Shown: positions 49,405-62,358 of the stretch, piece by piece | Numbering within the stretch: position 1 is the stretch's first letter | How the letters are laid out: each line of letters begins with the position of its first letter | NCBI GenBank assembly: GCA_017883385.1 | Contig: JADGNQ010000001.1 | Location: 1-64,000, forward strand | DNA from: Candidatus Sulfotelmatobacter sp. | GTDB taxonomy: Bacteria; Acidobacteriota; Terriglobia; Terriglobales; Acidobacteriaceae | DNA length: 64,000 nucleotides | Reading direction: 5' to 3' | Translations under genes and position numbers: made by a program | Notes under the pieces: model-generated | Database searches by the model: none | Told to the model about the DNA's origin: nothing | What the model saw: the letters and a program-made list of their open reading frames with translations, nothing else

Positions 49405-50376
49405 CTACACCTGAATCTTAATGATCTTGCGAATCACGAAATATCCGACTGTTTGCAGGGTGATCCCGGCCACCAGCAAAGTGTGGCCGACGGGGTCAGA
49501 GAAAAGTGGCCGGACAAAATCCGGGCTAAACACCAGCATGAGGGCGACTACGACCGGAGATAAGGCCATCAGAAAAGCCATGGTGAGGCGCCCCTGAGCC
49601 GTATAGACGCGTACCTGGCGCTGGATTTTGAACCGTTCGCGGATGACATAGGACAGGTTGTCGAGGATTTCGGCGAGGTTGCCGCCGGTCTCGCGCTGCA
49701 ACATGACGGCGGTGACGAAGAACTTTACGTCAACCAGGGGCATGCGCTCGGTGAGATTGAGCAGGGCGTCGCGGACGGGCATGCCGAACTTCTGTTCCTC
49801 GTAGAGTTGGCGGAACTCGCCGGAGACGGGCTCGGAAACCTCATTTGTGATCATTTCAAGCGCCGTGGTGAAGGCGTGTCCGGCACGAACCGCGCGAGCC
49901 AGGGTATCGATCGCCTCGGGAAATAGTTCCTCAAATTTCTCGAAGCGCTTGTTGCGGCGGAAAGAGACGACCGAGTAGGGCAGTACAAATCCGATCAACA
50001 AGGCGACCCAGGCGACTTCCACCCGCTTGCTCAGAATGTAGACCGCGATTGTGGCGACGATTCCGGTAATCGCGCACAGCCCCAGGAAGTTGCCGGCACG
50101 CATCGTCATGCCGGCCTGGGCCAGCATTTTCTGGATGGCGGAAATGCGTTCCGAGCGCCGGAGCAGGCTGTCGAGTGCTGGAATCTGGCTCAGTTGCTCA
50201 TCGCGCAGGAGGGCGAGTTCTTCTTCAGGAGCGCGCTCGGGAGACTTGCGCTCGCTGGCTAAACGCTCCTTAAGCAGGCGGGCACGGGCTCTGCGCTGAT
50301 CGACCAGCGAGCCTAGGGCGAAGGACGCGAGCGCGACTACGATGAAGACTAGAAAAGCCATCAATGCTGCGGGCAT
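49405..50376 (-). CDS. tadB: Tad pilus inner-membrane platform protein TadB
   Basis: This 323-residue GspF-family platform protein has helices near 5-25, 105-145 and 270-320. The T2SSF core is FPEAIDTLARAVRAGHAFTTALE and LQRETGGNLAEILDNLSYVIRERFK. I start at ATG 50376 (MPAALMAFLVF), seven bases after the cpaF stop. The longer frame to 50607 lies within cpaF and carries no conserved features. It pairs with TadC. Confidence 0.9.
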   Translation of the reverse strand: MPAALMAFLVFIVVALASFALGSLVDQRRARARLLKERLASERKSPERAPEEELALLRDEQLSQIPALDSLLRRSERISAIQKMLAQAGMTMRAGNFLGLCAITGIVATIAVYILSKRVEVAWVALLIGFVLPYSVVSFRRNKRFEKFEELFPEAIDTLARAVRAGHAFTTALEMITNEVSEPVSGEFRQLYEEQKFGMPVRDALLNLTERMPLVDVKFFVTAVMLQRETGGNLAEILDNLSYVIRERFKIQRQVRVYTAQGRLTMAFLMALSPVVVALMLVFSPDFVRPLFSDPVGHTLLVAGITLQTVGYFVIRKIIKIQV

Positions 50377-50383
50377 AGCACTC

Positions 50384-51679
50384 TCAAACCTCAGTTCTCG
50401 ATTCAAACAGCGCGGGCCGCAAGCGGGTTCCCCCAGTGGCCAAGCGTTCAGCAAACTGCGGGCGGATGCCGGTCGCACGAAATACACCCCGGACCTTTCC
50501 GCTCTCGTCGATACCGGTACGGTCAAAACTAAAAATGTCCTGCATACCGATTGAGTCCTCGACCATTCCGGTGATTTCGGTAATCGTGATGACCTTGCGG
50601 GTACCATCGGCGAGGCGCGCGATCTGAATGACGGCGTGGACCGCGGACGCGATCTGGTGGCGCACAGCCCGTTCGGGAATGTTGAGATTCGCCATCGAGA
50701 CCATGTTCTCGACGCGAGCCATCGCGTCGCGCGGGGAGTTGGCGTGCACGGTGGTCAGCGAGCCCTCGTGGCCGGTGTTCATGGCCTGCAACATGTCGAA
50801 GGCTTCCTCGCCACGGACCTCGCCAACCACGATGCGGTCGGGACGCATACGCAAGCTGTTGATGACCAGTTGCCGCTGACGCACAGCGCCTTTGCCTTCA
50901 ATGTTAGGCGGCCGGGTTTCCAGGCGGACAATGTGTTCCTGCTTGAGCTGGAGTTCGGCGGCATCTTCGATGGTGACGATGCGGTCAGAGTTGGGAATGT
51001 ATCCCGACAGCACATTTAGCAGAGTCGTCTTGCCGGCACCGGTTCCGCCGGACACCAGGATGTTGAGGCGTCCTTTGACCATGGCGGAGAGCAACTCGAG
51101 CATCGACTCGGTGAGGCTCATATTCTCGATCATCTGGCGTGCGGTAACGGGTTCACGTCCGAAACGGCGGATGGAGAGGCAAGGGCCGTCGATGGCCAGC
51201 GGGGGAATGATGGCGTTGACGCGCGATCCGTCGGCAAGACGGGCATCCACCATCGGCGAAGATTCGTCCACACGGCGCCCGACGCGCGAAACAATGCGCT
51301 CAATGATCTGCATAAGATGCGCATTGTCTTTGAAGGACAGGCCGGTGAGTTCGAGTTTGCCGGCGCGCTCAATGTAGACGCGATCGAACTTGTTGACCAG
51401 AATGTCGGAAATTGTGGGGTCCTTGAGCAACGGCTCCAGGGGGCCCAGACCGAAAATTTCGTCGAGGATTTCGCGCGAAAGGCGTTCGCGCTCGGCAAAG
51501 CTGAGGGGCACGACCTCGGCGTTCACGGCGTTGCGAATGACGACCAGCACTTCGTCGCGTGCAGAGTCTCCGGAGGTCTTTCCCAACTTCTCCAGATCGA
51601 GGCGGTCGAGAATCTTGCGATGCAGGTCGGCCTTTACCTGCTGGTAATCTGCGCGCTCGAACGATTGGAGATTTGCCAT
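50384..51679 (-). CDS. cpaF: Tad pilus assembly ATPase CpaF/TadA
   Basis: This 431-residue type II/IV secretion ATPase has an N-terminal domain (1-170) with [21 protein letters not shown] and [17 protein letters not shown]. The Walker [21 protein letters not shown] is at about 210-229, the Asp box [14 protein letters not shown] follows, and then the Walker B and His boxes ([35 protein letters not shown]). It powers Flp pilin polymerisation through TadB/C. It lies between cpaE and tadB in the standard order. Confidence 0.95.
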
Positions 51680-51707
51680 TGTGTCCTAAATCTGTGTCCT
51701 AGAGTAC

Positions 51708-52880
51708 CTAAACCGACTTAAACAGCGACCATGCGGCGCGCTTGGCTTCGACATCGTTGCGTGTCAATTCCTGTGCCAGGCCAGAAAAACAGCGGGCGAT
51801 CTCGGTGTTGCGCTGCTCCATCAGGGGCGTGCCGCGATCGATCGCGCCTGACACCGCGAAATACTGGTTCGGTACCCGCCACAGCAGCTTGGCGCCCACC
51901 GCGGCTTCGGCGTCAGACTCGCTGAATCCGGGGACTTTGCGAAAGCGATTCAGTACCAGCCGGACCCGCTCCCGGCTCCCGGTTTCTCCCAGATACTGCT
52001 GCACACGTGCTGCGCTCCAGAGCGAGGCCACGTCGGTGCAGGCGACGAGCAGCACCGTTTCCGAGAGACTTGCGATGAGACGGCTGGCCGCGTCGAAACG
52101 CGAGGAGGCATCGACGACCACGTAACGGTAGTGCGTTACCAGCATATCGAAGAGACGCACGAATTCCGCAGTCGAGGGATCGACCGCAGCCGGCATGTTG
52201 GTTCCAGCCAGCAATTGCAGGCCGCCGTTGTGGCGCGTCATAAAGCTCTCCAGCAGGGATGCATCCATGCGGTGGAGATTGCGAGTCGCGTCGGCCACGT
52301 TGAATACCGGCTTGAGATTCATGTGCAGCGCGGCATGGCCCAACGGAGCCAGGTCAACGAGGGCAGTTTGTCCGTGAACGGACTGCAGAGCCATGGCGAG
52401 ATTGACTGCCACCGTGGTCGCACCGTTTCCACCCTTCGCGTTAATGACTGAGTAAACCTTGCCGCGAGGACCCTCCTGGCGACCCCGGCGCTGCGCCGTG
52501 GTGAGCCGGACGAAAGCTTCGAGCAGGTCGGTGGTGGTGGTGGGACGCTCAATAAACTCGCGGGCTCCGGCTCGCATGGCGTTGACGATGATCTGCGGCT
52601 GGTTGAGGTTGCCGATGGCGAAAATGGCGGCTTCGGGCATCTCCTGATGCAGCAGTTCGATGGCTCGCAGAGCCAGTGGAGGATTATCTGCGGGAATGTC
52701 GACCAAAGTGACGTCGGGATTAGCCGCGCGTACGCGGCGCGTGATCGGGTCCGATCCGGCCACCGGAAAACTGGCGCAGGTATGGACGGTGCGCGCCACA
52801 CTAGTGCCATCGACCAGTACCTGCATCACGGCCCGCTGCTCATTATCGGTAGCGACGATGACGACTGAAAGCTCTGGCAT
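51708..52880 (-). CDS. cpaE: Tad pilus localisation ATPase CpaE/TadZ
   Basis: This 390-residue protein has an N-terminal atypical receiver domain (about 1-125; VTLVDIPADNPPLALRAIELL). A MinD/ParA-like ATPase domain follows (about 140-390). Its deviant Walker A is INAKGGNGATTVAVNLAMAL, where Lys and GNGATT fit the family, and YVVVDASSRFDAASRL is the second motif. It positions the pilus at the cell pole. It is encoded between the secretin and cpaF. Upstream AGGG supports ATG 52880. Confidence 0.9.
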   Translation of the reverse strand: MPELSVVIVATDNEQRAVMQVLVDGTSVARTVHTCASFPVAGSDPITRRVRAANPDVTLVDIPADNPPLALRAIELLHQEMPEAAIFAIGNLNQPQIIVNAMRAGAREFIERPTTTTDLLEAFVRLTTAQRRGRQEGPRGKVYSVINAKGGNGATTVAVNLAMALQSVHGQTALVDLAPLGHAALHMNLKPVFNVADATRNLHRMDASLLESFMTRHNGGLQLLAGTNMPAAVDPSTAEFVRLFDMLVTHYRYVVVDASSRFDAASRLIASLSETVLLVACTDVASLWSAARVQQYLGETGSRERVRLVLNRFRKVPGFSESDAEAAVGAKLLWRVPNQYFAVSGAIDRGTPLMEQRNTEIARCFSGLAQELTRNDVEAKRAAWSLFKSV

Positions 52881-52952
52881 AACTACCCTGTGGTCTCGTT
52901 CTTCACCGTGAATCTCCCACTCGCGCCGGGATTCTATCCCGGGTCTGGCCGC

Positions 52953-54374
52953 CTACTTGCTTTGCGGTTTGTCGAACTTGTCCTTATCCATAAACGGGCG
53001 CGGGTCCTTGGGCAGGATGGGCGCCTCCGTATCAGGAGAAATGCGGCGCACTGTGCACAGAACCATCAATTCGGAGTGACTCTTCTGCGCGCTCTTGCTA
53101 CGAAAAAAATTCCCCAGGATCGGAATATCGCCGAGGCCCGGAATCTTGTTGTAAATGTCGGTGACACGATTGTCCATGAGACCCGCGATCACAAAGCTCT
53201 GACCATCCTTCAATTCAAATTCGGTTTCGGCCTTGCGGGTACTGAGAGCGGGCACGGTGAATCCGGAGATCGTCAGCGCATTGGTAAAGTCCAATGTGCT
53301 CACTTCCGGAGCTACCTTCAAATGAATATTTCCGTTGGGCATGATGACCGGGGTGAACTGCAGGCGGACGCCGAAGTCCTTGAACGAGATCGTGACCGCC
53401 GTGAAGCCGGCGCCGGGTTGCACGATGGGGAAGGGGAATTGGCCTCCGGCAAGAAAGCTGGCTTCTTTGCCGTTGAGGGCGATCAGGTTTGGCTCCGCCA
53501 GAATCTGCAACAGGTTCTTCGACTCCAGCGCCTCAACGACGGCCCCGAAATTAATGTCCGAACGAAAGAGAAAAAGGTTCAGGACATTGTTGATGGTCTC
53601 CCCGGCATTGGTGGTAACGGTAGTTCCTGCAGCGGTCTGCGTGCCCGGGGTCAAGGTCTGAGGTCCGAAGCCGCCGAACTGGCCGGTGGTGGTGCCGCCC
53701 AGGGTATTCCCGGCTCCCGTGGAAATAAAATTGATCCCCATCTGAGTAATGGCGGAGCGGTCCACTTCCGCGAATTTTACCTGGAGCAGAACCTCCTGGG
53801 CGCCAACTGGCCCGAAGGTAAGCACGTTAACTACTTTCGGAGAATAGGCAGTGGCAAGTTCTCCGGCGCGCTTGGCGACATCTTCGGTGGTCACATGTCC
53901 GGAGAGAACGATAGCAGCCCGCGAGGGCGTGACCGCGATTTGCTCATCGGGGAAGACGCGATGCTCTTCTTCAGCGCAAGCACTTACGTCGACGTCGACG
54001 CGCAGGTCGAAGCTGCGCGAGCGTTCCAGTTCATCCCAGATCAGAAGTGAAACTTCTCCTGGTGTCTTGCCGTGAACCAGAATCTGCGTGGGCGTGATGA
54101 CCTGGGCGAAAGCAATCGCCGGATCGGTGACGGAGATGCGCTTGAGTTGCTCAGTCGTGTTAATGAGCAGCGACTTGCCCACCATCACGCGCAAAGGCGC
54201 CGATCCCTGGGACTGCTGGGACTGCGGCGGAAGCGTCGTGGTCTTGGTGCCGGTGGGTGCCTCGCTCTGGGGCTGAGCCGCGGTATCCGCTTGCTGTATG
54301 ATCTCTGAAAACGCTGGCAGAGCGAAGACAACCGCGAACAGTAAAGCCCCAAGCAACGACGTGCGAACTTTCAT
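52953..54374 (-). CDS. cpaC: Tad pilus secretin CpaC/RcpA
   Basis: This 473-residue outer-membrane secretin starts at ATG 54374, with GAGAGGAA upstream. The signal peptide covers about 1-23. The pilus N-terminal domain is at about 55-135 (GKSLLINTTEQLKRISVTDP, ILVHGKTPGEVSLLIWDE). A BON-like segment follows (IVLSGHVTTEDVAKRAGELA). The secretin domain is at about 215-440 (ILAEPNLIALNGKEASFLAGG, VRLQFTPVI, FELKDGQSFVIAGLMDNR). It forms the outer-membrane channel for Flp pili. Confidence 0.95.
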   Translation of the reverse strand: MKVRTSLLGALLFAVVFALPAFSEIIQQADTAAQPQSEAPTGTKTTTLPPQSQQSQGSAPLRVMVGKSLLINTTEQLKRISVTDPAIAFAQVITPTQILVHGKTPGEVSLLIWDELERSRSFDLRVDVDVSACAEEEHRVFPDEQIAVTPSRAAIVLSGHVTTEDVAKRAGELATAYSPKVVNVLTFGPVGAQEVLLQVKFAEVDRSAITQMGINFISTGAGNTLGGTTTGQFGGFGPQTLTPGTQTAAGTTVTTNAGETINNVLNLFLFRSDINFGAVVEALESKNLLQILAEPNLIALNGKEASFLAGGQFPFPIVQPGAGFTAVTISFKDFGVRLQFTPVIMPNGNIHLKVAPEVSTLDFTNALTISGFTVPALSTRKAETEFELKDGQSFVIAGLMDNRVTDIYNKIPGLGDIPILGNFFRSKSAQKSHSELMVLCTVRRISPDTEAPILPKDPRPFMDKDKFDKPQSK

Positions 54375-54448
54375 TTTCAGATTCCTCTCCCTGTGAGGAG
54401 ACTTGCCGGTGCGTAACGATGGAACTCGCAAGATTGAACTTTTCCTGG

Positions 54449-55312
54449 TCACTTGGCCCCGCAGCCATTGTCTGTGCAATTGACTACGTCGGGCTTCTTG
54501 TCGCCTTGGTACACCTCAACGCTAACCCCGGTGGAAGCGGGTGGAAGCGGCGTCGCAGTCTTCTTCGGCACCGTGCGATGAACCACGGGTTGCACCGGAG
54601 GGGCGGCGACTCCCTTGTAAAGACCCCGAGAGTTGGAGGAAGCCACTTCGTCCTGCTTGGTGTCGAGCGGATTGCGCAGCGCGAGTTGAATATGTCCTTC
54701 AGAACTGGCGAGAGTAAGACGTTGGGCGTCGTCGGGTGAAACCAAGAGCGTGATGACCGCCGTGTTCTGGGCCTCGCCCGTGGAGGTTCGTTCCAGGGTA
54801 TGGCCCGACGCCAGTACGGCGACGTTCTGCAGAACGGTGGTTGTCTGCTGTTCACCGCCCGCGCCGGGCGTTCCCGTCAGGAGCACGTCGACGCGAGTTC
54901 CGGGTGTTACGAATCCAGCAACGGATACAACTTCATTCACCCGCACCGACACCGCGCGCATCCCCGGAGGAATCAGCGAAGGAAGACCGGATCCGGCGTT
55001 CTCCCCGGCGAGCCGGTTGGGGAGAATGAACTCACCCCTGGCGATGGGGATGATGACGCCATGTCCCAATACGTCGGATTTTCTCCTGGGCGCACCCGGT
55101 GGGAGATCGTCCCGCGGAATCTTGATGACCTTAATATCGTGTTCTTCCACCCTGGCCCCAACCTGAAGATCGTCCGCCGCGACGATGACTTCGACGCTGG
55201 GTTCGGTACTAGCCCCACTTTTCGACTGCAAATTCCTATAGACATACACGCTCGCAAAGAAGCCAAGCGCCAGGGCCAGTACTCCAATCATCATCAAACG
55301 TGTGCGGTTCAT
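54449..55312 (-). CDS. cpaB: Tad pilus protein CpaB/RcpC
   Basis: The 287-residue protein has one N-terminal membrane helix (about 6-26, LMMIGVLALALGFFASVYVY). A SAF domain follows (about 40-110; VEVIVAADDLQVGARVEEHD, LGHGVIIPIARGEFIL), then the RcpC domain (AVSVRVNEVVSVAGFVTPGTRVDVL). CpaB is thought to stabilise the secretin and may bind peptidoglycan through SAF. It is encoded between the pilin and the secretin. Confidence 0.92.
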   Translation of the reverse strand: MNRTRLMMIGVLALALGFFASVYVYRNLQSKSGASTEPSVEVIVAADDLQVGARVEEHDIKVIKIPRDDLPPGAPRRKSDVLGHGVIIPIARGEFILPNRLAGENAGSGLPSLIPPGMRAVSVRVNEVVSVAGFVTPGTRVDVLLTGTPGAGGEQQTTTVLQNVAVLASGHTLERTSTGEAQNTAVITLLVSPDDAQRLTLASSEGHIQLALRNPLDTKQDEVASSNSRGLYKGVAAPPVQPVVHRTVPKKTATPLPPASTGVSVEVYQGDKKPDVVNCTDNGCGAK

Positions 55313-55388: not shown

Positions 55389-55550
55389 CTACTGAATTGA
55401 ACTGGCGACGGAGGAGAACACGGTGTTGGCATTGGAACCGATCAACCGGACCGTTCCAACTACAATGACAAGAATCACGGCCAGCATGACTGCATATTCC
55501 GCGATGTCCTGTCCTTCGTCTTGTCTCCATAGCCTGCGTAAAAGCTCCAT
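55389..55550 (-). CDS. Flp/Fap-type pilin
   Basis: The 53-residue Flp pilin precursor reads MELLRRLWRQDEG then QDIAEYAVMLAVILVIVVG. The prepilin site G/Q with Glu at +5 and Tyr at +6 is typical of Flp. A hydrophobic helix and a short tail TVFSSVASSIQ follow. ATG 55550 has GAGGG upstream. It is the first gene of the Tad run. No prepilin peptidase or TadE/TadG is in the window. Confidence 0.9.
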   Translation of the reverse strand: MELLRRLWRQDEGQDIAEYAVMLAVILVIVVGTVRLIGSNANTVFSSVASSIQ

Positions 55551-55792: not shown

Positions 55793-57118
55793 CTAAACAT
55801 CTGGGATTGTTGGGCTTGAAGGTGGTTCAAGCGCCTGGGTACGAAGGCCCGGAGCGAGCTGATTGGGCAGTTCTGGGTGAACAAATAGTAAACAACCCAG
55901 GGCAAGCAAAACAGCCAGCGGCAATAGTGGGCTGGTGTAAAGCGGGACCTCCCAGAAGCGAAGTAACGGGGTTACAGGGAGCCCAAGGGCGGCGACCAGT
56001 AGGCCGAAGCAAGCGATCCAGGGCCAAGCCAGCAGGATCCATGCGGCGAAGCGGAGACGGCGCGCGAGTGAATTTGCAGGCCGGTGGGGAACCGGCCTGG
56101 ATAGCAGGCACAAGAACCCCGGCAACAACAATAGTTGTGCGTGAGGAGCGAGAGTCGGGATAACGACCACATTCGCCGCCAGCAAAAGGCTGCTGACCAC
56201 AAAGAATCCCGGCGAGTCTGCCGATTGGGTTCGATATGGCCAGCACAATACCAAGGTCGCCAGCAGGAGGACGGCGGAGGCTACGTGACCGAAGGCAGAA
56301 GTGAACCAAACATCTAACAGAGAATGCCCGTAAGTGTAGTGGCCGTAGGCGCGAACGACATTCAGAAAACTGGGAACCCAGCCGCGCACCAGCCATTCGC
56401 TGACAACCGCGAGGGCGAGCATCGTGATGAGAAAACTCCAGGCCGCGGAGCGGCGACGGCGCCAGTCAGCGGCGGTCCAGAGCGCGAGCCAGGGAATCAA
56501 CACGACCACGAACTGAGGTTTGAAACTGGAAGCGGCGAGGAAGATGCCAGCAAGAATGAGGTAGTCGGCCGAGAGAAGAGACAGCGTGATCGCGATGAGA
56601 GCCGCGGCAATCAGGCTCATGTTCTGCAATTTGATGGCCTGCAACGCGGGGAAACTACCCAGAACGAGAAGCGCGATCGCGAGCCGTTGCAGTGGCGGCG
56701 GACGGAAGTGTAAGACCCGCAGCCACAACGTAAGGCTCAACAACATGACCAGGACAGAGGTGCAGAAGAATACCTTCTGCGCAACCGGAAATGGCAAGTG
56801 CACCGTTGGCCAAAGAAGTAGAGCTGCGTACGGTGGATATGCAAAACCACCAGCGATGCCTGAAGGATCGTCCGGCGAAGACTCCACCGGAGCTCCGTAG
56901 ATCACGGTTTGAATTTCGTGTGCGATAGCGGGCGAATACGGACTGCGGCCGTGGAGCAGGAGTTCATGTGCTCCCCACCAGGGAGCGTACAGGTCAGAGA
57001 AATATGGGGGCTGGTTGGCACTCCAGATCGCGTTGACGTAGTGCGCCATGCTCACGGCCGAAAGAATACTGAGCAGCAGCCACAGAACAGGCTTGGAGAG
57101 GAATGGGGACTTCTTCAT
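55793..57118 (-). CDS. GT87-like (DUF2029) polyprenol-dependent membrane glycosyltransferase
   Basis: The 441-residue protein has about ten membrane helices. The first periplasmic loop SDLYAPWWGAHELLLHG then RSPYS is the characteristic Asp/Arg/Pro block of GT87 mannosyltransferase-like proteins. The same block recurs in the gene at 59298. A conserved loop around IKLQNMSLIAAALIAI and the motif SSFKPQF follow. It probably transfers a sugar from a polyprenyl-phosphate donor on the periplasmic side. The substrate is unknown. ATG 57118 overlaps the upstream PAP2-like gene as ATGA. Confidence 0.75.
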   Translation of the reverse strand: MKKSPFLSKPVLWLLLSILSAVSMAHYVNAIWSANQPPYFSDLYAPWWGAHELLLHGRSPYSPAIAHEIQTVIYGAPVESSPDDPSGIAGGFAYPPYAALLLWPTVHLPFPVAQKVFFCTSVLVMLLSLTLWLRVLHFRPPPLQRLAIALLVLGSFPALQAIKLQNMSLIAAALIAITLSLLSADYLILAGIFLAASSFKPQFVVVLIPWLALWTAADWRRRRSAAWSFLITMLALAVVSEWLVRGWVPSFLNVVRAYGHYTYGHSLLDVWFTSAFGHVASAVLLLATLVLCWPYRTQSADSPGFFVVSSLLLAANVVVIPTLAPHAQLLLLPGFLCLLSRPVPHRPANSLARRLRFAAWILLAWPWIACFGLLVAALGLPVTPLLRFWEVPLYTSPLLPLAVLLALGCLLFVHPELPNQLAPGLRTQALEPPSSPTIPDV

Positions 57119-58269
57119 CCGGTGGTTCCCCCGCGTGCTGGAGTCGGCCCTGCTCCATTGTGGCGAAGCGGACCGCCCGTGATCGCTATGCCAAGCGCGG
57201 CCACAAGTATCCCTGCGGCGATGTCGGCAACGTAATGCCATTCCAGCAAGACGACCGCAGCCGTGAGCAACACATCGTAGGCCGCGAGGGCAATCAGCAT
57301 TCGCCTCCGACGCCGCACGAACCACAACACCACCAGCGGTTGAGCGATGTGCATGCAGGGAAGACCAATGTAGTAGTCAGTGGGAATACGCGTGATTGGC
57401 GAATGGTTCCACCGTGACAGAGCGTGCGCGATCAGGGTCTTCTGGATGTTGTAGGACTGAAGGCTCGCCGGAAATCGGGAAAAATGCGCCGGACAAAGAT
57501 AATAAGGCCCCTGCGACGGCCAGATATAAAAGATGGTAAGGGCTATGTAGTAGGACATCAGAATCGTCCCCACGAACCGCAAAGCGCGCGCTTTTCCATC
57601 GCAGAGCGCGACGAGAATGATGGTCGCGCCAATCTGAGGAAACATTCCGAAGTAGACGAACTCAAGAGCGTGAAAGAAAGATAGCGGGAAGGCCTGTACT
57701 GCCCAGTGAGCGAAATCCCCAACCGAATGGCCGCGCAGAAGCCAGCGGTCCATTTCGGCAAGCGCTGGATCGAACGCGAAGTTGAAGCGAACCGAGACGA
57801 TCGCACAGTTGTAGGCGAGGACCATCAGGAATCCGAAGAACAGATAGGCAGCCGGCGTGAGAACCGCGGCCGCGGCCCGGCGTAGTCCTTGTGCTTTTTG
57901 ACGATCTTGCAGTTCGAGAAACGCGATGGTATCGACAGTCAACACCAGCGCCTTCACGCCGTTCGTGGCCCAGGCCAGGATGGCGAAATAGAAGATCAAT
58001 GCGACGATGCGAAATGGGTTCTGGCGATAACGCGCGAGGAAAGGTTCCCACACCTGGTGGCGGGGCAAACCGATGAGGCATAGGAGTACTGCTACGAAAA
58101 TGGCCTGCGCCGCGAGAAGACCCCAGTAGGCGACGCCGAGCGGGATCCAGTCGAACTTGAGCGGGAGATGCTGACTGCGCAGGACGGGGACGAGGGCCGC
58201 ACACAATAGCAGGCTCACCCAGTAGTGCCAGTAACGTGGTCTCATCGGGCTGCAGGTTTCGATGTGCAC
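57115..58269 (-). CDS. PAP2/inositolphosphotransferase-like membrane protein
   Basis: The 384-residue protein has six or more membrane helices. The C-terminal half has the Aur1/Ipt1-type PAP2 pattern: IPTDYYIGLPCMHIAQPL (His of the middle motif) and EWHYVADIAAGI (His and Asp of the last motif). Relatives include yeast inositol-phosphorylceramide synthase and bacterial phosphatidylinositol-phosphate-type transferases. It would move a phospho-head-group between lipids or dephosphorylate a prenyl phosphate. It is coupled to the GT87-like gene downstream and 34 nt after another membrane gene. ATG 58245 is an alternative start. Confidence 0.8.
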   Translation of the reverse strand: MHIETCSPMRPRYWHYWVSLLLCAALVPVLRSQHLPLKFDWIPLGVAYWGLLAAQAIFVAVLLCLIGLPRHQVWEPFLARYRQNPFRIVALIFYFAILAWATNGVKALVLTVDTIAFLELQDRQKAQGLRRAAAAVLTPAAYLFFGFLMVLAYNCAIVSVRFNFAFDPALAEMDRWLLRGHSVGDFAHWAVQAFPLSFFHALEFVYFGMFPQIGATIILVALCDGKARALRFVGTILMSYYIALTIFYIWPSQGPYYLCPAHFSRFPASLQSYNIQKTLIAHALSRWNHSPITRIPTDYYIGLPCMHIAQPLVVLWFVRRRRRMLIALAAYDVLLTAAVVLLEWHYVADIAAGILVAALGIAITGGPLRHNGAGPTPARGGTTG

Positions 58270-58303
58270 TGGGAAGGCTGGAGTCTAAACAATCGGCCCG
58301 GCG

Positions 58304-59194
58304 TCAGACAACCGGCAGCGCATGCGACTCTAGGTCGAGCGGTTGCTTTCGCAGCAGCACCACGACCAGCATCGGCAGATAGAACAAGATCACAGTCCAG
58401 CGTCCGACTTCGATGAAGCTGTGGGGAATGTGGTACCAGCGCCAAATCCCCGCTCCCCAACTGAAAAACACAGTCCAGATAATTTCGCGGCGCGACTGGG
58501 GAATGAGCCAAAGGATGAAGCTGTCAAAGAACCAGCGTTGCGGCATGATCGCGGACGAGAGCAGAAACAGTGCATCGCGATCGCGGTAGCGGAGCAGTGC
58601 GAGGAGGAGCAGCGGTCCCGGAAGAACGAGGAGGGGAAAGAAGTGCTCGTAATTTCCGGTCTGCTTCCACCACAGCAAAGGCCACGTCGGCATCACAGCG
58701 AGGCTCAACGCACCAAGCGCCGCGCACGCCCAGAGGCCGCGACGGCTGACTCTGGTCAGGAACACCGGCAGTCCGACTTGCGGTTTGGCCATGGTCACGG
58801 GCAGAAGCAGCGGGAAGAACGCGCTGGCAGCTATGATCGGAGACCATTGCACGGTCAGGATTCCGGCCCAATATGGGTAGGCGAGGAAGACCAGTAGCCG
58901 GGTATAGCCATGACGGGTCAAACCGAATGCGAGCAGGGAAGAGCTGATACCCCAGAAGAATCCGGCGGCGAGTTCCGGTTGAAGACGCACGAAGGGCAGG
59001 GCGAACAGCGCCGCGGTGAGCGGATACTGTTCCAGCGGCGTATCGTAGGGATTCTGCCGGGCCAGCAGGCGATGCGCGAGATGAAGGGCCCAGCGGAAGT
59101 CGGCGGCATCCTGATGGAAATGTTTCATCAGGAACCAGCAGAATGCACCACTCGCGAAGCCGATTGCGGCCGAGACTGCGATGCGCCATCGCAT
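58304..59194 (-). CDS. Polytopic membrane protein, probably GT87-related
   Basis: This 296-residue protein is chosen from ATG 59194 (MRWRIAVSAAIGFASG); the longer frame to 59257 adds a non-hydrophobic tail. About eight membrane helices are visible. The loop HLAHRLLARQNPYDTPLEQY resembles the Arg-Asn-Pro-Tyr loop of the GT87-like neighbours. It is shorter than them and lacks their N-terminal Asp-Leu-Tyr motif, so the assignment is tentative. It starts the minus-strand run 59194-55793 and diverges from the GT87-like gene at 59298. Confidence 0.65.
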   Translation of the reverse strand: MRWRIAVSAAIGFASGAFCWFLMKHFHQDAADFRWALHLAHRLLARQNPYDTPLEQYPLTAALFALPFVRLQPELAAGFFWGISSSLLAFGLTRHGYTRLLVFLAYPYWAGILTVQWSPIIAASAFFPLLLPVTMAKPQVGLPVFLTRVSRRGLWACAALGALSLAVMPTWPLLWWKQTGNYEHFFPLLVLPGPLLLLALLRYRDRDALFLLSSAIMPQRWFFDSFILWLIPQSRREIIWTVFFSWGAGIWRWYHIPHSFIEVGRWTVILFYLPMLVVVLLRKQPLDLESHALPVV

Positions 59195-59297
59195 GAAATG
59201 GATTGTGCCCACACAGTTGTAACATGAAGCGAATTCACTGGGACCGAGTTGGTGCAACCGGGCTGAACACGCCCGGCCGAAAGGAAAGAACGCTGCT

Positions 59298-60599
59298 TTG
59301 CTGAAGCGCCCACCGTTCGTCGTCGCACTTGCCCTGGCCGTCCTGGCCTCAGCGAGTACGTGGTTCTACGTCAATCGGATTCTGAGGGCGCAGCAGATTG
59401 CCGATGCCACGGTGCACAACCGGCCGCGGGGCAATCTGTCTGATCTCTACCCGCGATGGCTCGGAGCGCGCGAACTGCTGCGGCACGGGCGCAATCCTTA
59501 CAGCGCCGAGATCACGCGCGAGATTCAGCGGGGATATTACGGCCGGGCGCTCGATCCAGCCCGGCCGGACGATCCCAAAGATCAGCAGGGCTTCGCTTAT
59601 CCCGCGTATGTGGTATTTCTGCTGGCGCCAACCATCGGTCTCCCGTTCGATGCAGTGCAGATCGGGTTTCGATGGCTGTTGATCGGTCTCGCGGCGGGGA
59701 GCGTCTTGCTTTGGCTTCACGTTCTCCGCTGGAAGGCGACGTGCGGCACCAAGGTGATTCTGATCGCCCTGATCGTGGGTTGGCTGCCCATGGTGCAAGG
59801 AATCAAGCTGCAACAGCTGAGTTTGCTGGTGGCGGGATTGCTTGCTGGGTGTGGCGCATGCCTGGCAGGCGGTTGGTTTTTTTGCGCAGGCGCACTGCTG
59901 GCGCTCGCGACCATCAAGCCGCAACTGGCGTGGCCGGTGGTACTGTGGCTGCTGCTGTGGTCGGGCAGCGAGTGGCGCTCGCGGCGGGGCTTCGTTTTTG
60001 GGTTCGGCCTGGTCATGCTCCTGCTGCTGGTCGGAGCGGAACTGGTGTTGCCCGGTTGGCTGCGGATGTTCGTTGAAGCGATCGGGCAATATCACCGGTA
60101 CACGCAGAATCAGTCGGTGCTGGTCGTGCTCTTTGGTTCTATCGTGGGCCGAATTCTCGAGGCGATGAGCCTGCTGGCCTGCGCTCTTTGCGTCTGGCAG
60201 GCTCGCAAAGAACCCGCATCCAGTGCCGCCTTTGGACGAGCGATTGGCCTTGTGTTGGCGCTGACGGTCGTCATCGTTCCGATGTTCGCGCCCTACAATC
60301 AGGTGCTGCTGGCGCCGGCGATTCTAGCGCTGGTGTGCGGCGAGATTTCCAGCGAGCCAATCCTGCCGGCAGTTCGACTGGCCCGTGCCGTCGGTGCCGT
60401 GCTGTTTGCCTGGCCTTGGATCGCAACTCTGGGGCTGAGTGCAGCCTATCTCCGGCTGACTCCGGATCTCAGGCAGCGCGTCTGGCCGATGCCGTTTTAT
60501 TCCAACTTTGTGCTGCCCGTGTTCATCTTCGGATTGGCACTGCTGGATGCATGGATGAATGCGGCGCGCAACTTGCGAGACAACACAGCAGCAGAGTAG
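59298..60599 (+). CDS. GT87-like (DUF2029) membrane glycosyltransferase, second copy
   Basis: The 433-residue product starts at TTG 59298. It has about ten membrane helices, and the first loop SDLYPRWLGARELLRHG then RNPYSAEITREIQRGYYGR matches the 55793 gene closely. Other shared segments are GIKLQQLSLLVAGLL and ATIKPQLAWPVVLWLLL. It is a paralogue acting probably on the same type of polyprenyl donor. It is divergently transcribed from the three-gene minus-strand group and ends 83 nt before the FHA-phosphatase start. Confidence 0.75.
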   Translation: MLKRPPFVVALALAVLASASTWFYVNRILRAQQIADATVHNRPRGNLSDLYPRWLGARELLRHGRNPYSAEITREIQRGYYGRALDPARPDDPKDQQGFAYPAYVVFLLAPTIGLPFDAVQIGFRWLLIGLAAGSVLLWLHVLRWKATCGTKVILIALIVGWLPMVQGIKLQQLSLLVAGLLAGCGACLAGGWFFCAGALLALATIKPQLAWPVVLWLLLWSGSEWRSRRGFVFGFGLVMLLLLVGAELVLPGWLRMFVEAIGQYHRYTQNQSVLVVLFGSIVGRILEAMSLLACALCVWQARKEPASSAAFGRAIGLVLALTVVIVPMFAPYNQVLLAPAILALVCGEISSEPILPAVRLARAVGAVLFAWPWIATLGLSAAYLRLTPDLRQRVWPMPFYSNFVLPVFIFGLALLDAWMNAARNLRDNTAAE

Positions 60600-60681
60600 T
60601 CTGTTGAAGCAAGGCTTGCCGCGGCGGGGGCCGCGGCTTTTCAGCGCCAAGCACGGCGAACGGCGCGGCGAATTGCCATCC

Positions 60682-62358
60682 ATGACCCTGAATAGCATCA
60701 GTCATCACGGCTCCGGCTCCGGGGTGTTTCCCGCCCTCGTGTTCGTGCAGGGGAGTGAGCAGAAGAACATTATCCTGAACCACATCCCGTTCAACGTGGG
60801 GCGGAAGGTGGACAAGGATCTGGTGATTGCCGACCCACGCGTCTCGCGGGATCATGCGCAGATCATGCAGGAGGGGCAGGATTTCTTCCTGGTCGATTTG
60901 GGCAGCAAGCACGGCACGTTCGTGAATGGCGAGCGGATCCAGCGCCAGAAACTCGAGCGGGGCGACCGTCTGGAGTTTGGCGCGCGCGATTCCGCCTATA
61001 TCCTGTTCAACCCGGCGCATGCCACTTCTAATACGGCGCGCGAATTTCTCAGCCAGATCTCCGGCATTCAAATCAAGCAGGAAGCGACCGACCTCGAAAA
61101 GCTCACGCTTTTCCTGGAAGCCGCACGCAAACTGAATACGGCCGGCGTACTGGACGAGATTCTGATAACGATGCTCGACGTGACGCTGCAACTGACGCGA
61201 GCCGAACGCGGCTACGTTTTTCTCAAGGACGAGGAAGGGAAGCTCCGGCTGATGGCCGGCCGCAACTCCAAGAAAGAGCCGTTGCTGGACGACAAGACGA
61301 TTTCGCATTCGATTCTGGAAGAATCCATGCGGTCGAACTCCGAGTTTCTGTTGACCGACACCAGCCAGTCGCTTGATCTTGCGGGCCGGCAAAGCATTGT
61401 GGCCTACGATCTGCGGACCGTGGTCTGCATTCCGTTGCGCAAGATGCAGGTGCAAGCGACGCGGGATGCCCAAACGCCGGTACCGGCGCCGAATTCCGCG
61501 GAGGCGATGGGAGTCTTGTACGTCGATTCGCGCTTCGCTTCGCGCGACATTGGCGGAGTAGGCCACGATATTCTGCACGTGATCGCGACCGAAGCGGCGT
61601 CGCTCATCGAGAACGCACGCCTGGTGCAGGCGGAGGAAGAAGCCCGCCGCTACCAGCAAGAACTGAGCATCGCGGCCAGCATTCAGCAACGGCTGATGCA
61701 GGTGAAGATCCCGGAAGTGCCCTTTGCACGGCTGCGAGGCAAGAACCTGTCTTGTAAAGAGATCGGGGGAGACTTCTTCGACGCAGTGAACACCAAAGAA
61801 GGTCTCGCGGTGGTGCTGGCCGATGTCAGCGGCAAGGGAGTTTCAGCGGCTTTGCTGGCTTCCACGCTGCAGGGCATGATCTATTCACACCTGAGCGCGG
61901 GGGCGCCGTTGCTCGATGTAGTGTCGGCGGTCAACCGGTTCTTCACCGAGAAACTCGTTGGCGAAAAATACGCTACCGTGCTGCTGGTGCGCCTGCGCCG
62001 CGATGGCGAGCTTGAATATGTGAATTGCGGCCACGTTCCTCCGCTGCTGGTGTGCGCCGGAGAGGTGATGCGACCTCCGCACGGGAATGTACCGGTGGGA
62101 TTGCTGGCGGATGCGACTTTTGAAAGCGCGAGCTGTCAGATGAAATCCGGCGACCGCTTCATTCTAGTGACTGACGGCGTCACGGAAGCGGAGAACGCCA
62201 TGGGAGATTTTTTCGAAGACTCGCGGTTGGAAGCGGCTGCGTGCAAGTCCCCGACTCTGGAAGGGATTTTTTCGGCCGTGTCGGATTTCTGTGCAGGAAA
62301 TCCACTGAGCGACGATTGCACGGTGGTAGAGCTGTGCTACACCAGCGCAGACGATTAG
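60682..62358 (+). CDS. FHA-GAF-PP2C (SpoIIE/RsbU-type) serine phosphatase
   Basis: This 558-residue protein has an FHA domain (about 20-95; VGRKVDKDLVIADPRVSRDHAQI, DLGSKHGTFVNG), which binds phosphothreonine. A GAF sensor is at about 115-295, then a coiled linker and a PP2C/SpoIIE catalytic domain at about 315-555. That domain contains IGGDFFDAVNTKEGL, LADVSGKGVSAALLAS, LEYVNCGHVPPLL, FILVTDGVTEAEN and DDCTVVEL, with the metal-binding Asp residues. It is likely to control an anti-sigma-factor antagonist or a kinase pathway. Starts at 60559 or TTG 60604 would add an arginine-rich stretch. ATG 60682 is preferred, although its ribosome site is weak. Confidence 0.88.
   Translation: MTLNSISHHGSGSGVFPALVFVQGSEQKNIILNHIPFNVGRKVDKDLVIADPRVSRDHAQIMQEGQDFFLVDLGSKHGTFVNGERIQRQKLERGDRLEFGARDSAYILFNPAHATSNTAREFLSQISGIQIKQEATDLEKLTLFLEAARKLNTAGVLDEILITMLDVTLQLTRAERGYVFLKDEEGKLRLMAGRNSKKEPLLDDKTISHSILEESMRSNSEFLLTDTSQSLDLAGRQSIVAYDLRTVVCIPLRKMQVQATRDAQTPVPAPNSAEAMGVLYVDSRFASRDIGGVGHDILHVIATEAASLIENARLVQAEEEARRYQQELSIAASIQQRLMQVKIPEVPFARLRGKNLSCKEIGGDFFDAVNTKEGLAVVLADVSGKGVSAALLASTLQGMIYSHLSAGAPLLDVVSAVNRFFTEKLVGEKYATVLLVRLRRDGELEYVNCGHVPPLLVCAGEVMRPPHGNVPVGLLADATFESASCQMKSGDRFILVTDGVTEAENAMGDFFEDSRLEAAACKSPTLEGIFSAVSDFCAGNPLSDDCTVVELCYTSADD

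Follow-up and report, generated by a model that had tools for sequence, protein, structure and literature searches.

A variable block of PAP2_3 and GT87 membrane protein genes beside a Tad/Flp pilus locus in Candidatus Sulfotelmatobacter

We analysed a 64,000-nucleotide stretch of Candidatus Sulfotelmatobacter DNA (GenBank assembly GCA_017883385.1, contig JADGNQ010000001.1, positions 1 to 64,000; hereafter the window), in which four adjacent genes for polytopic membrane proteins, at 55793-60599, occupy a slot flanked by a Tad/Flp pilus locus on one side and by a gene for an FHA-GAF-SpoIIE regulator on the other. The slot differs in content between genomes, the four-gene block being the local version of a mosaic, and its Tad/Flp neighbourhood is the strongest context signal, which a preliminary description of the same DNA, made from the sequence alone, had overlooked. 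An open reading frame (ORF) check of the window recovered all four genes where that description had located them. Next to the pilus locus lies GT87A (55793..57118, minus strand), which encodes a putative PimE-like GT-C glycosyltransferase of 441 residues, as judged from its Pfam GT87 match, a loop aspartate and its clade. It is followed by the gene for a PAP2_3 protein of 384 residues, here called PAP2 (57115..58269, minus strand), for which the Pfam PAP2_3 match, a structure model and motifs point to an Aur1/IPC-synthase-type fold, and by P3 (58304..59194, minus strand), which encodes a polytopic protein of 296 residues that belongs to no Pfam family and that a profile-profile match suggests is a short GT87 relative. 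The last gene, GT87B (59298..60599, plus strand), encodes a predicted PimE-like GT-C glycosyltransferase of 433 residues, based on its Pfam GT87 match and the comparison of its model with PimE. The listed ORF of P3 opens upstream at a TTG (59257), and the start is most likely the ATG at 59194, where its homologues begin. P3, PAP2 and GT87A are transcribed towards the pilin gene; GT87B lies divergently on the plus strand, which indicates that the four genes do not form one operon. The stop codon of PAP2 overlaps the start codon of GT87A within the sequence ATGA. This overlap, already described for the window, is kept in all eight examined loci that hold both genes (the window and seven others); locus L039 is missing GT87A and has no such overlap.

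Both GT87A (51.2 bits) and GT87B (39.9 bits) scored above the cut-off of 25 for Pfam GT87 (PF09594), the family to which PimE belongs, which bears out the earlier proposal of two GT87-like paralogues. The loop said to be common to both was likewise found, as SDLYAPWWGAHELLLHGRSPYS in GT87A and SDLYPRWLGARELLRHGRNPYS in GT87B. Within this first extracytoplasmic loop, Asp49 (in SDLY) is invariant in all 25 GT87A and GT87B sequences, and we take the loop aspartate to be the catalytic residue of PimE-type GT87 enzymes. In a tree, eight GT87A sequences formed one clade with a local support of 1.0. Sequence searches of the PDB with three profiles (A1, A2 and A3) returned no match, and the comparison of folds was therefore used instead. 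A GT87B model built from 20 sequences, with a mean predicted local distance difference test (pLDDT) score of 89.0, had PimE (9dm5) as its best structural match (Z 26.3, 345 aligned residues, root-mean-square deviation (rmsd) 4.0 A), which is the outcome of a comparison that the preliminary description had proposed. A second PimE match (Z 24.8) was followed by ALG3 (19.6), glycosylphosphatidylinositol (GPI) transamidase subunit U (17.5) and GPI mannosyltransferase I (17.2), and lower still by ArnT (12.5) and the protein O-mannosyltransferase Pmt4 (11.6). By this model, GT87B has a PimE-type fold. PimE, a polyprenyl-phosphate-mannose-dependent GT87 mannosyltransferase of mycobacterial phosphatidylinositol mannosides, has its whole-chain fold and loop aspartate in common with GT87B. 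Unlike PimE, GT87B comes from an acidobacterial host, is one of two paralogues and is neighboured by Tad pilus genes, and the two proteins are only 16% identical.

Across the six other four-gene loci, conservation is highest for P3, at 70-81% identity compared with 52-76% for the other three proteins. None of its 14 homologues matched GT87 (PF09594) at E <= 10. In an hhalign comparison with a broad GT87 profile, P3 gave a P value of 1.6e-6 (0.086 for the reversed control) and a probability of 90%, and with a narrow GT87A/B profile the match was not significant (P 0.058). The residues D32-F33, NPYDT, YP and KPQ are invariant or almost so, which is compatible with a reduced GT87. P3 is thus most likely, by profile comparison, a reduced, short relative of GT87.

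The PAP2 protein matched Pfam PAP2_3 at 69.2 bits (cut-off 27), and all nine members of its alignment (A3) matched this family at E <= 10, the best at 1.8e-20. A model built from 17 sequences (mean pLDDT 83.4) had as its top structural matches IPC synthase (9vj4; Z 15.7, 230 aligned residues, 3.5 A) and Aur1 (9ivc; Z 15.3, 251 aligned residues, 4.7 A), these two alignments starting at residues 16 and 3, respectively. These were followed by the sphingomyelin-synthase-related protein SMSr (11.4), LpxE (11.1 over 161 residues), G6PC1 (11.1) and PgpB (10.7 over 176 residues). Foldseek again placed IPC synthase and Aur1 as the top two, at modest E values of 7.8e-3 and 4.6e-2 and with poorly superposed structures. 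The window protein carries the motifs LPCMH and HYVAD with their histidines 38 residues apart, and the pattern P-x-x-H and H-x3-D, which is common to Aur1 and IPC synthase, is intact with this same spacing in 17 of 17 aligned sequences. Six other Tad-linked PAP2_3 proteins that we examined show the same pattern with a spacing of 37-39 residues; in yeast Aur1 the spacing is about 39 residues. PAP2 lipid phosphatases of the PgpB/LpxE type carry the motif SR-X5-H-X3-D, and the corresponding arginine, six residues before the second histidine, occurs in none of the 17 sequences. Based on the model, the PAP2 protein is Aur1/IPC-synthase-type in fold and closer to these enzymes than to phosphatases, in agreement with the earlier guess of an Aur1/Ipt1-type enzyme; the grouping with simple undecaprenyl phosphatases that would have spoken against that guess was not obtained, since phosphatases scored lower and the motif arginine is missing. 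Unlike Aur1 and IPC synthase, with which it is 11-12% identical, the PAP2 protein belongs to a genome in which no known ceramide pathway was found.

The slot that holds the block is bordered on one side by a Flp-type pilin gene (55389..55550, minus strand), which matched Pfam Flp_Fap at E 0.0046, under the cut-off, and adjoins CpaB in relatives, followed by the Tad core (49405..55312, minus strand). The core comprises TadB-like, CpaF, CpaE, secretin and CpaB/RcpC genes, of which RcpC and the secretin were identified by Pfam and TadB, CpaF and CpaE by sequence reading. On the other side lies the FHA-GAF-SpoIIE (PP2C-type) regulator gene (60679..62358, plus strand; SpoIIE 137 bits, FHA 73 bits, GAF under cut-off), whose product is 84-93% identical among the loci of the genus, higher than the products of the slot genes. 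These flanks are syntenic in relatives; what fills the slot differs. The named relatives are Candidatus Sulfotelmatobacter, Acidobacteriaceae and other acidobacterial metagenome-assembled genomes, which puts the window within or close to Candidatus Sulfotelmatobacter. A PAP2 orthologue (E <= 1e-60) was found in 11 of the 45 genomes of the genus, including the window genome (G000), a count that leaves out two weaker matches at about 5e-4 (G133 and G135). In ten of these eleven, PAP2 lies in the slot adjoining GT87B (G000, G070, G117, G123, G124, G132, G139, G147, G148 and G154). The eleventh orthologue, that of G131, has 35% identity and is located at the end of a contig, and the 12.8 kb examined there contain no further slot or Tad gene.

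Conservation of the block as a unit, which the preliminary description had proposed as a check, held in part. The four genes are intact in six of the ten slot genomes with the window-type PAP2 (G000, G070, G117, G123, G147 and G154), and the others form a mosaic with P3 remnants in two, loss of GT87A in one (G139) and an in-frame TAG in PAP2 in one. The remnants of P3, 30-31 residues between GT87B and PAP2 (L058:9865-9951 in G124 and L060:9862-9951 in G132), resemble a recent deletion; the contig of G132 ends past PAP2, so that GT87A is not visible there. The interrupted PAP2 orthologue of G148 (L045:8755-9891) either is decaying or reflects an error of assembly, while GT87A, P3 and GT87B read through in that genome. 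G087 has no match to the window PAP2, yet it carries a different Aur1-type PAP2_3 gene in the same slot. Among 120 genomes sampled from the order, with that of the window counted in, PAP2 was found in 3 (E <= 1e-10), P3 in 9 (E <= 1e-5) and a GT87A-like gene in 19 (E <= 1e-10). From these counts, P3 and GT87B are probably the older core, with PAP2 and GT87A the variable part. Another polytopic family, of about 486 residues and with a DPDxWWH motif, was observed near the Flp pilin (L047:4977-6434, L048, L049, L054, L038, L045 and L065); its L047 member has no Pfam match.

We also investigated the linkage of PAP2_3 and GT87 genes to Tad loci within the order sample, in which 70 of the 120 genomes contain CpaB (RcpC), at 74 loci. 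PAP2_3 matches of at least 40 bits, a limit picked after inspection of the match list, numbered 40, of which 31 are in CpaB-bearing genomes. Nine of these 31 lie within 10 kb of CpaB compared with 0.13 expected by chance, and six of the nine fall outside the orthologue group of the window PAP2. Similarly, GT87 matches (at least 16) lie within 10 kb of CpaB at no fewer than 12 of the 74 loci against 1.02 loci expected, a lower bound because matches sharing a contig with CpaB were picked by eye among the matches listed; adding six loci read by hand (G000, G070, G092, G004, G090 and G109) raises this to at least 18 of 74. The expected 1.02 was computed from all 231 GT87 matches in the 70 CpaB genomes, and the Poisson expectation assumes random gene placement and independent genomes, an independence that relatives violate. 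The examined Tad loci also encode further large membrane proteins, among them ones that have PMT_2 or GT87 domains, and four putative GT2 enzymes tested from three of them all matched Pfam GT2.

A scan of a wider collection yielded nine further loci with a PAP2 relative, which leaves out ten loci treated as duplicates of genomes already counted. Tad core genes were found by tblastn in four of the nine (L063, L065, L068 and L072), and TadE- and TadG-like proteins were identified by eye in L071. L066 has GT87B and the FHA-SpoIIE flank, after which the sequence ends. No Tad genes were found in L070 (a 7.0 kb contig), L074 (a 4.2 kb contig) or L073. L070 also encodes a 919-residue protein with a spermine-synthase domain (L070:2423-5179) that adjoins PAP2 and GT-C-like genes. 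In L071, a 604-residue ORF that looked by eye like a glycosyltransferase was rejected, as it matches an IS110-type transposase.

The supply of possible substrates was assessed in the genus. Of the 45 genomes, 40 have an inositol-1-phosphate synthase domain, among them that of the window and genomes with and without PAP2; an NCBIfam search at E 1e-5 assigned the inositol-synthase ORF of the window genome to no family. That genome also encodes four CDP-alcohol transferases, one of which resembles phosphatidylinositol (PI)-phosphate synthases under every NCBIfam cut-off (161 bits where archaetidylinositol-phosphate synthase requires 180, and 123 where PI-phosphate synthase requires 170). These matches suggest that inositol phospholipids are plausible in the host, independent of PAP2, and since the supply is genus-wide and not tied to PAP2, it is permissive evidence only. 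The phospho-inositol head group put forward earlier thus gains the synthase domain and the PI-phosphate-synthase-like gene, but the latter stays below its cut-offs and the supply is not specific to PAP2. For ceramide, the alpha-oxoamine synthase profile TIGR01825 matched in 40 of the 45 genomes of the genus and had no match in the window's draft genome; its absence from G000 is an assembly gap or a real loss. Three alpha-oxoamine synthases examined in other members of the genus resemble Kbl/BioF, with 225-392 bits against serine palmitoyltransferase cut-offs of 500-670, and no serine palmitoyltransferase of known type was found in the window's draft genome or among these three representatives. 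Because no representative reached the cut-off, we dropped the ceramide wording of the preliminary description, and ceramide as the lipid acceptor is unsupported by these profile searches.

On the basis of the modelled folds, the motifs, the overlap of PAP2 with GT87A, the synteny and the enrichment close to Tad genes, we infer catalysis, donors, an acceptor and a tie to the pilus as follows. The reading that we favour, and to which we give about an even chance, is that the slot holds a Tad-linked surface-glycoconjugate cassette whose enzymes would make a phospho-linked product serving the pilus or its surroundings. Polyprenyl-phosphate donors supply the sugars for PimE-type enzymes, which work at the outer membrane face, and Aur1-type enzymes use a His-His-Asp site to move the phospho-headgroup of a phospholipid onto a hydroxyl. 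The slot enzymes would act at the outer face of the inner membrane, where PAP2, through its two histidines and its aspartate, would remove a phospho-headgroup from a phospholipid and hand it on to the hydroxyl of an acceptor, be it a lipid, a pilin or some other surface glycan. GT87A and GT87B, with the invariant loop aspartate as the base, would each add one sugar drawn from a polyprenyl-phosphate sugar, and P3 could be a third transferase or a helper. The PAP2-GT87A pair might then make and glycosylate the phospho-linked product, to which GT87B and P3 would add further units. A narrower version, in which an Aur1-type phosphotransferase and PimE-type transferases build an inositol-phosphate glycolipid with which the Tad pilus is decorated or anchored, forming a pilus-dedicated, strain-variable system, seems improbable to us.

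Several observations weigh against the cassette reading. In the genus, where many of the 45 genomes are drafts, only 11 have a strong PAP2 match, and among the 20 most complete genomes six have a PAP2 match, two of these weak. The PAP2 relatives in G131, L073 and L074 have no Tad gene within the stretch examined, which for two of the three is short or lies at a contig end, and 22 of the 31 strong PAP2_3 matches are not near CpaB. Linkage is not function, and here it was set against chance placement; Tad loci may occupy a region that gathers surface genes. The C-terminus of the pilin is almost identical whatever the slot content, and Foldseek taken alone is weak for PAP2 (E 7.8e-3, TM score 0.35, rmsd 15.4 A).

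One alternative, which we regard as possible, is a free membrane glycolipid pathway with the Tad locus as a mere neighbour, in which PAP2 would add phospho-inositol or a phospho-sugar to a lipid acceptor such as ceramide or diacylglycerol and the GT87 enzymes would add mannose-like sugars. The top structural matches fit such a pathway, being IPC synthase/Aur1 and PimE followed by ALG3 and GPI-pathway proteins, as do the widespread inositol-1-phosphate synthase domain and the PI-phosphate-synthase-like gene, which is under its cut-off. Against this pathway, the inositol synthase occurs irrespective of PAP2, and its ORF in the window genome matched no NCBIfam family at the threshold used; no serine palmitoyltransferase was found in the window's draft genome or among the three representatives, and the linkage to Tad genes is far over the chance figure.

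The Tad/Flp locus adjoining the block leaves room for rivals in which the acceptor is pilus- or surface-linked. Of this kind is pilin glycosylation, an explanation that we find rather doubtful, in which the GT-C enzymes would add sugars to Flp or minor pilins in the manner of TfpW and PAP2 would recycle or modify the lipid carrier. Slot genes do adjoin flp in most loci that hold both, and there are precedents in TfpO and TfpW for type IV pilins (PMC11841053) and in RcpC, said to be implicated in Flp glycosylation (PMC12307814, in an introductory sentence). Against this, the nearest match of GT87B is the glycolipid enzyme PimE (Z 26.3), with the protein O-mannosyltransferase Pmt4 at just 11.6, and PAP2 is without the phosphatase motif expected for carrier recycling. 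The pilin C-terminus is constant across slot contents, and its Ser/Thr patterns, being independent of what the slot holds, neither support nor exclude glycosylation of the pilin. It is unlikely, in our judgement, that PAP2 functions as an ordinary undecaprenyl- or phosphatidylglycerol-phosphate phosphatase and that the GT87 enzymes act in an unrelated exopolysaccharide pathway: the core of the PAP2 model also matches LpxE and PgpB (Z 11.1 and 10.7), but the scores of IPC synthase and Aur1 exceed these by about 4 Z units and extend over 230 and 251 residues compared with 161 and 176, and the arginine six residues ahead of the second histidine is missing from 17 of 17 sequences.

The surface-glycoconjugate reading has a counterpart at another pilus. 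TfpW is a GT-C arabinosyltransferase of pilins encoded beside pilA in Pseudomonas, and TfpO and TfpW are described as glycosylating type IV pilins with protection from phages (PMC11841053). Compared by that description, the likeness is that of a GT-C enzyme as a strain-variable accessory gene at a pilus locus; unlike the Tad locus of the window, TfpW belongs to a type IVa pilus. Our search of the open-access literature found no description of GT-C or PAP2 genes in Tad loci, none of a pilus-dedicated, strain-variable glycolipid system, and nothing on IPC synthase together with PAP2 in bacteria.

To our knowledge, most bacterial PAP2_3 (Aur1-type) proteins, and most GT87 enzymes from organisms other than actinobacteria, have no assigned function. 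Their recurrence beside Tad genes, in sets of variable content, offers a place to test for a role, namely the pilus, its lipid surroundings or its exposure to phages. The slot enzymes resemble those that make the sugar-bearing inositol lipids of mycobacteria and yeast, and the pilus or its surroundings may bear a coat of sugar-lipid. If the product is an inositol-phosphate glycolipid, a lipid theme like that of mycobacteria and eukaryotes would be connected with an adhesion pilus of soil acidobacteria.

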